The notes under the pieces were generated by a model, which ran no database searches, was not told the DNA's origin, and saw only the letters and a program-made list of their open reading frames with translations. From Gammaproteobacteria bacterium (GTDB lineage: Bacteria > Pseudomonadota > Gammaproteobacteria > SZUA-229): a stretch of DNA of 37,997 bases. Made by a program: the position numbers and the translations under genes. The DNA is taken from the NCBI GenBank assembly GCA_029882355.1, contig JAOUKV010000007.1, positions 74,114 to 112,110 of the forward strand. Reading direction: 5' to 3'. Every line of letters starts with the position of its first letter. The first letter of the stretch is position 1. This document shows, one piece after another, positions 26,858-28,952 of the stretch.

Positions 26858-28789
26858 TTATTCCTCCAAAACGGCAGAACCGCGGCACGCAATTTCATCT
26901 GAGAATCTGGTAATCAAGCCTTCTATAGACATTGATCCAAGATCCTCTCCACTTCGCGTGCGCACGGTCACCGTGTTATTTTCCAGCTCCTTATCGCCGA
27001 TCACCAGCATATAAGGAACCCGTTGTATTGTGTGCTCGCGGATTTTAAAGCCGATCTTCTCATTTCTCAAGTCTAATTCGACTTTAAATCCTTGTTCGAG
27101 CAACATTTTTTGCATTTTTATCGCAAAACCTGCCTGCTTGTCGGTAATGTTCATAATTACCGCCTGAACCGGTGCCAACCAGAGCGGGAAACGGCCTTCA
27201 TGTTCTTCGATCAAAATACCAATAAATCGCTCAACTGAACCCAGAATCGCGCGATGCAACATCACGGGGACTTTGCGAGTATCGTCTTCAGCCACATACT
27301 GAGCGTCCAGACGACCAGGCATTGAAAAATCGACCTGCATGGTGCCACACTGCCACTGCCTGCCCAGACAATCTTTTAATACAAACTCGATTTTTGGCCC
27401 ATAAAATGCGCCCTCACCAGGCTGTAATTTCCAGTCCAGCCCTTTGTCATCCAATGCTACTTCTAACGCTTTCTCAGCCTTATCCCATGCAGCATCATCA
27501 CCAACACGTTTTTCTGGACGGGTTGATAAAGCAACCATCACCTCGGTAAAACCAAAGTCCGCGTAAACCTCGTAAACCAGATCAATGAAAGCAGAGACTT
27601 CATCCTGTAACTGATCCTCGGTACAGAAGATATGCGCATCATCCTGCACGAAGTTACGTACACGCATCAATCCATGCAGCGTGCCTGATGGCTCATTACG
27701 GTGACAGGAGCCGAACTCCGCCAAGCGTAGCGGCAAATCACGGTAACTTTTCAAACCCTGATTGAAAACCTGAATATGACAGGGGCAGTTCATTGGTTTA
27801 ATGGCGTAGTCGTGATGCTCGGAATGCGTGGTAAACATCATGTCACCGAACTTGTCCCAGTGTCCGGATTTTTCCCACAGACTGCGATCAACAATCTGCG
27901 GCGTATGAATTTCCTGATAATCGTGCTGACGTAATTTTTTACGAATGTAATCCTGCACTTCCAGATTAATCAACCAGCCCTTTTCATGCCAGAACACCAT
28001 ACCCGGTGCTTCTTCCTGAAAATGGAATAGGCCCAGTTTTTTAGCCAACTTACGATGATCACGCTTCTCGGCCTCTTCCAGCTGGTGCAAATACTGATTG
28101 AGCTGCTTTTTATCAGGCCATGCAGTACCGTAAATACGCTGTAACATTTTGTTGTTGGAATCACCGCGCCAGTAAGCACCGGCCAGTTTCATCAACTTGA
28201 AGCCTTTACCCAACATTCCAGTGCTAGGTAAATGCGGGCCACGGCAAACATCGAACCATTCGCCCTGGCGGTAAATTGTTACTTCTTCGCCTTCGGGAAT
28301 AATATCTTCGATGATTTCGACTTTGTATTTTTCACCTAAATCACCGAACAGTTTGATAGCTGCTGCACGATCAATCACTTCACGTTCAATCGGCAAATCA
28401 CGTTTGACGATTTCGTGCATGCGCGCTTCGATTTTTTTCAGGTCCTCTTCATGAAAAGCTTCATCACGCGCAAAGTCATAATAGAAGCCGTTTTCAATCG
28501 CGGGCCCAATAGTAACCTGCGTGTCGGGGTACAGCTCTTGCACGGCCTGGGCCATGACATGTGCACCATCGTGGCGCATCAGCTCCATCGCCTCTTCGCT
28601 CTTACCGGTGATAATGGCCAACTCAGAATCAGATTCGATTAAAAAAGAAGCATCAACCAAATTGCCATTAACACGACCGGCTAAGGTAGCTTTTGCTAAA
28701 CCGGGACCAATATCCTCGGCCACAGCCATCACAGTTAAAGCAGAATCGAAAGAACGTTGAGTACCATCAGGAAGGGTAATGACAGGCAT
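26858..28789 (-). CDS. thrS: Threonyl-tRNA synthetase
   Basis: A class II synthetase that charges tRNA-Thr and represses its own mRNA in E. coli. It has 643 residues (E. coli 642). An N-terminal TGS domain ([20 protein letters not shown]) is followed by the second editing domain ([39 protein letters not shown]). The catalytic core has zinc-site [10 protein letters not shown] and motif 2 [20 protein letters not shown], and the C-terminal anticodon-binding domain starts at about [10 protein letters not shown]. The start is the ATG at 28789 after GGAG. The leader has a tRNA-Thr anticodon-arm mimic next to this ribosome site. It heads the thrS-infC-rpmI-rplT operon, behind tRNA-Val and its terminator. 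Confidence 0.98.
26863..26867 (-). promoter_or_regulatory. Ribosome binding site deciding the infC AUC start
   Basis: GGAGG on minus lies eight bases before the ATC codon and inside the last codons of thrS, whose TAA stop is in frame just ahead of infC. No ATG, GTG or TTG exists in frame at usable spacing. Confidence 0.85.
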
Positions 28790-28795
28790 TATTTT

Positions 28796-28824
28796 CTCCA
28801 GTGGCGACCATTACGAGAGGTCGC
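28796..28824 (-). promoter_or_regulatory. thrS translational operator: tRNA-Thr anticodon-arm mimic
   Basis: On minus, the thrS leader has a GCGACC/GGTCGC stem (28804-28824) capped by TCTCGTAAT. With one U-U pair closing, this is a 7-base loop CUCGUAA: U at position 33, then CGU, the anticodon of a threonine tRNA, then AA. The stem ends three bases before the GGAG ribosome site. E. coli ThrRS represses thrS by binding a similar anticodon-like arm upstream of the start codon. The fold and loop are read from sequence; the binding is inferred. Confidence 0.65.
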
Positions 28825-28844
28825 GTGTTATGTTTAAAAATACT

Positions 28845-28868
28845 AAAAAGCACCGCTTTGCGATGCTT
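28845..28868 (-). terminator. Intrinsic terminator after tRNA-Val
   Basis: AAGCATCGC pairs with GCGGTGCTT on minus (one T-G pair) around AAA and is followed by TTT. It starts seven bases past the tRNA 3' end. It may allow partial read-through into thrS. Confidence 0.75.
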
Positions 28869-28875
28869 AAAAAAT

Positions 28876-28952
28876 TGGTAGGCACGAGTGGATTCGAACC
28901 ACCGACCTCTTCCATGTCAAGGAAGCGCTCTAACCAACTGAGCTACGCGCCT
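28876..28952 (-). tRNA. tRNA-Val(GAC)
   Basis: A 77-base cloverleaf on minus. The acceptor AGGCGCG pairs with CGTGCCT, the D-arm has GCTC...GAGC, the anticodon stem CTTCC/GGAAG holds TTGACAT (anticodon GAC), the T-loop is GTTCGAATC, and CCA is encoded. It lies upstream of thrS with its own promoter and terminator. Confidence 0.96.

Follow-up and report, generated by a model that had tools for sequence, protein, structure and literature searches.

The stretch of DNA analysed here, a window of 37,997 nt from a gammaproteobacterial genome, carries on its minus strand thrS, the gene for threonyl-tRNA synthetase (ThrRS; 26858..28789; 643 aa; TIGR00418, 749 bits), followed in order by infC, rplT, pheS and pheT. 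The encoded ThrRS is full length and shares 60% identity with E. coli ThrRS in a full-length alignment, and 69% in the N-terminal 62 residues. All of the N-terminal domains needed for repression in an E. coli-type operator are present, and the best PDB matches include E. coli ThrRS 1qf6 and the 1kog sequence group. The E. coli residues N575, R583, R589, E600 and R609, which we take to have a role in anticodon contact, are retained. Upstream of thrS lies a tRNA-Val(GAC) gene (28876..28952, minus strand), and it is separated from the thrS leader hairpin described below, 51 nt away, by a terminator-like hairpin with a U-tract (28848..28868, minus strand). The first-pass annotation had likewise placed the leader hairpin behind a tRNA-Val terminator.

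The leader hairpin is an anticodon-arm mimic (28804..28824, minus strand) that is defined by its sequence, its fold, covariation in relatives and a covariance-model match. A six-base-pair stem of GCGACC (28824-28819) and GGUCGC (28809-28804) closes a nine-nucleotide loop, U-CUCGUAA-U, in which a U-U mismatch (28818 and 28810) flanks a seven-nucleotide loop of the anticodon type, CUCGUAA (28811..28817), with C34 at 28815, G35 at 28814 and U36 at 28813. The first-pass annotation had the position and geometry right, including CGU at 34-36, but counted three bases between stem and GGAG where there are four, CACU (28803-28800). The arm is followed by a conserved CACUG element (28799..28803), also found in the E. 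coli thrS leader and in nearly all relatives, which overlaps the Shine-Dalgarno sequence GGAG (28796..28799): the last G of CACUG is the first G of the Shine-Dalgarno sequence, giving CACUGGAG. On the 5' side there is a conserved CA (28826..28827), for which UG at 28800-28799 is the proposed partner. The arm begins about 35 nt and ends about 14-15 nt ahead of the thrS AUG (28789-28787). It is both the minimum free energy and the centroid fold (-10.5 kcal/mol in 52 nt), with a z-score of -2.8 and equally good folding in 0 of 200 shuffles, and the hairpin is confirmed as real. The loop matches letter for letter the anticodon loop (CTCGTAA) of the tRNA-Thr(CGU) encoded in the same genome. That tRNA gene (L263, G000:C26:16590-16760) has a low score, 50.8 bits, and its anticodon stem is mismatched at 27-43 and at 31-39, the latter comparable to the U-U mismatch of the thrS arm. 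Rfam searches at the gathering score returned no match on the arm in the window, and the E. coli thrS leader gave only two weak chance matches to snoU13.

Chance is excluded by conservation of the arm rather than by its fold alone. Leaders of 110 thrS genes were gathered by ThrRS protein similarity alone, and a strict scan found the arm type in 37 of 111 thrS leaders versus about 1% (1.2%) of Markov-shuffled leaders. Hairpins of this type stand ahead of thrS in many Gammaproteobacteria, for example Marinobacter, Marinomonas, Zooshikella and Halopseudomonas, and are absent from the sampled thrS leaders of Betaproteobacteria and Methylococcales. A covariance model, R1, was built from an alignment of 41 leaders (A1), E. 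coli among them. R1 finds a single site in the 2.88-Mb genome of the window, at 44.6 bits with the runner-up at 13.2 bits, the window arm being one of the 41 training sequences. Matches at E <= 0.01 occur in 131 of 369 Gammaproteobacteria genomes, and at 119 loci fetched from this class search a thrS start follows the arm. In a sample of the phylum, 41 of 43 matching genomes belong to the same class and the other two matches are weak. All strong matches but one lie just ahead of thrS. The sole exception (L218:401-435; G339:C18:33392-33426) is a near-identical second thrS arm with a Shine-Dalgarno sequence and a short ATG frame and no thrS downstream, in a genome that also has a thrS leader of its own (L157). 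This copy is possibly a truncated duplicate or a decoy for ThrRS.

The first-pass annotation had proposed that related thrS leaders be aligned for covariation in the stem. In an independent set of 97 distinct arms, which has the same consensus as A1, 99.4% of cells pair, and there are 45 double changes versus 9.9 in shuffles, distributed over four pairs. The covariation score of this set lies above all 500 shuffles and all slid registers. The alignment was fitted to the model, yet it contains no gaps, and RNAalifold on its own arrives at the same six pairs. The outer CA/UG pairs (C-G or U-G, and A-U) are present in 99.5% of cells of the same set. This is consistent with a two-base-pair outer helix around a small internal loop, although these positions are too invariant for covariation to prove it.

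What the loop conserves is a threonine anticodon of the form NGU rather than CGU itself. So that the count would not be circular, arms were chosen by stem and C-N-CUG only, blind to the loop, and NGU was found at 34-36 in 147 of 151 distinct arms. Position 34 of these NGU arms is C in 89, G in 33, A in 15 and U in 10. Among loci fetched by ThrRS protein alone NGU occurs in 45 of 47, the other two being unrelated chance matches. The first-pass annotation had expected CGU to be conserved; this holds for G35-U36, whereas C34 varies freely, and strict CGU conservation was dropped as a criterion. G and U have been named as ThrRS identity elements (PMC7373986). If ThrRS recognises G35-U36 regardless of the wobble base, G35-U36 should be kept and position 34 free, as is seen here.

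How many arms does the operator have? Between the tRNA-Val and the proximal arm of the window there is no NGU arm, only the terminator hairpin with its 3-nt loop. The scan for second arms also misses domain 4 of the E. coli operator; in the window, however, domain 4 is excluded because the space itself is too small. The tRNA-Val gene is not a substitute second arm, a candidate that was rejected as its anticodon, GAC, lacks G35-U36. A second upstream NGU arm was detected in 15 of 158 leaders versus a chance rate of 1%, and owing to the blindness of the scan to domain 4 the single-arm counts are maximum values where no tRNA lies close to the arm. In 42 leaders the tRNA-Val ends at most 60 nt ahead of the arm, and all 42 lack a second arm; seven of them have a spacing of 13-29 nt, too short for a domain 4 of the E. 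coli type. Like the window, its closest relatives by ThrRS tree (L081-L095, L001) carry a single arm. The single arm is the commonest form found and is not peculiar to this genome. These leaders bear out, as far as sequence can, the earlier suggestion that the operator is simpler than the four-domain one of E. coli. The fusion of CACUG to the Shine-Dalgarno sequence occurs in 55 of 158 leaders, including the clade of the window.

Single-arm and double-arm leaders cluster on the ThrRS tree, in which the deep branches are weak. Two-arm leaders of related Gammaproteobacteria (e.g. L096, L098, L105, L108) share a proximal arm of the same consensus but carry, about 30 nt further upstream, another NGU arm whose stem is longer. 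Family f1 falls into two separate ThrRS groups, one with single-arm (L081-L095) and one with two-arm leaders (L096-L109), possibly through replacement of thrS together with its leader. Two or three tandem arm mimics, some each with a CACUG of its own, are found in the thrS leaders L229, L015, L004, L194 and L189. Some relatives have repeats between or within copies of the tRNA-Val gene upstream of thrS (L090:3510-3644, minus strand; similar in L084, L085, L089, L093, L094 and L095). The L090 repeat, behind tRNA-Val, matches the Rfam RtT RNA (RF00391), and a tRNA-Val copy in L094 and in L095 has its T-loop split by the repeat. The window has no such repeats.

We consider it highly probable (about 0.87) that ThrRS represses its own translation through this hairpin, which would be the bound arm of an operator like that of E. 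coli in a one-armed variant. Free ThrRS, without bound tRNA-Thr, would bind the loop through its anticodon-binding domain and read G35-U36. The bound enzyme would cover or sterically block the Shine-Dalgarno sequence and so exclude the 30S subunit; direct occlusion on arm binding is to be expected because the arm ends 14 nt ahead of the AUG and the Shine-Dalgarno sequence starts inside CACUG. Plentiful tRNA-Thr would displace ThrRS by competition, and thrS would be translated. With one arm in place of the two of E. coli, each mRNA would occupy a single subunit of the ThrRS dimer. Some points count against this explanation. The operator of E. coli works with two arms, U33 is retained in 131 of 151 arms and so not strictly, and a scan of the region upstream of thrS, which has a terminator-like hairpin ahead of the arm, gave no sigma-70-like promoter.

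The single arm could also be the partly decayed remnant of a former two-arm operator and regulate weakly or not at all. Two arms are described for the E. coli operator (PMC7373986), and the clade of the window as well as the 42 leaders close to tRNA-Val have no second arm. Decay would lead to drift, however, whereas in single-arm leaders of many families compensatory changes preserve the stem and NGU is retained, and we regard this origin as improbable. Somewhat less probable still is a generic hairpin that serves RNA stability, processing of a tRNA-Val-thrS cotranscript or Shine-Dalgarno spacing and is not read by ThrRS. Its location directly behind tRNA-Val in many genomes, at 13-29 nt in seven, would suit a role in processing, but such a hairpin would account neither for a G35-U36 that persists while the loop otherwise varies, nor for the exclusive link to thrS, nor for the orthology with the ThrRS-binding arm of E. 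coli. That the arm is a chance structure or a degenerate tRNA fragment is very improbable. The adjoining tRNA-Val, and the duplicated tRNA-Val 3' ends of some relatives, would be a source for such a fragment, but the stem has six base pairs and not five, the same element stands in distant genomes with no neighbouring tRNA, and it is found in about 1% of shuffled leaders. A tRNA pseudogene was rejected on stem length and conservation.

The mechanism that we propose, autorepression by ThrRS, is known in kind; what is new is the one-arm form, its fusion to the Shine-Dalgarno sequence and the coupling to tRNA-Val. A textbook case of RNA mimicry in a single species now extends to a large class, and a covariance model is at hand for an element that is apparently missing from Rfam. 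Does repression by the ThrRS dimer require two anticodon-like arms, or does a single arm overlapping the Shine-Dalgarno sequence suffice? The question has become testable. We tentatively suggest, at somewhat less than even odds, that a one-arm operator, often cotranscribed with tRNA-Val(GAC) and fused to the Shine-Dalgarno sequence in a third of leaders, is the common and perhaps ancestral gammaproteobacterial form, of which the well-studied two-arm form of E. coli would be an elaboration. The ThrRS dimer would then be engaged by way of one subunit, and the output of thrS would depend on transcription of tRNA-Val.

In yeast, AspRS binds a structure resembling an anticodon arm in the mRNA that encodes it (PMC9976931). 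The likeness, a synthetase bound to such a structure of its own mRNA, is an analogy only, as the yeast system is eukaryotic and involves another synthetase and another architecture. E. coli ThrRS binds two anticodon-like arms upstream of the Shine-Dalgarno sequence (PMC7373986). According to reviews, its N-terminus clashes with the platform of the 30S subunit and tRNA-Thr competes (PMC7373986, PMC3858243, PMC9976931), and control is lost without the N-terminal region (PMC7373986, PMC3858243). No survey of thrS leaders beyond E. coli was found in the open literature; subscription papers might contain one. The thrS leader of E. coli K-12 (L112) reads GUGAUC-UUUCGUGUG-GGUCAC-CACUG at the same place as the window arm, within the leader region that holds the ThrRS-bound arms of the known operator, and arm and CACTG stand 21 nt ahead of the AUG. 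Shared stem length, loop size, CACUG and position make the window arm an ortholog of domain 2 in the E. coli operator. The earlier claim of anticodon-arm mimicry as in E. coli ThrRS autorepression fits the presence of this arm at the equivalent place in E. coli, the covarying stem and the retained G35-U36. The window and the operator of E. coli (domains 1-4) are alike in the gene, the site ahead of the Shine-Dalgarno sequence, a stem of six base pairs, a loop of nine nucleotides, NGU in the anticodon register, CACUG 3' of the arm and a ThrRS with full N-terminal domains. They differ in that the window is without the second arm (domain 4), its arm ends 14 nt ahead of the AUG and not 21, its Shine-Dalgarno sequence begins inside CACUG, and a tRNA-Val gene with its terminator occupies the place of the rest of the E. 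coli leader.
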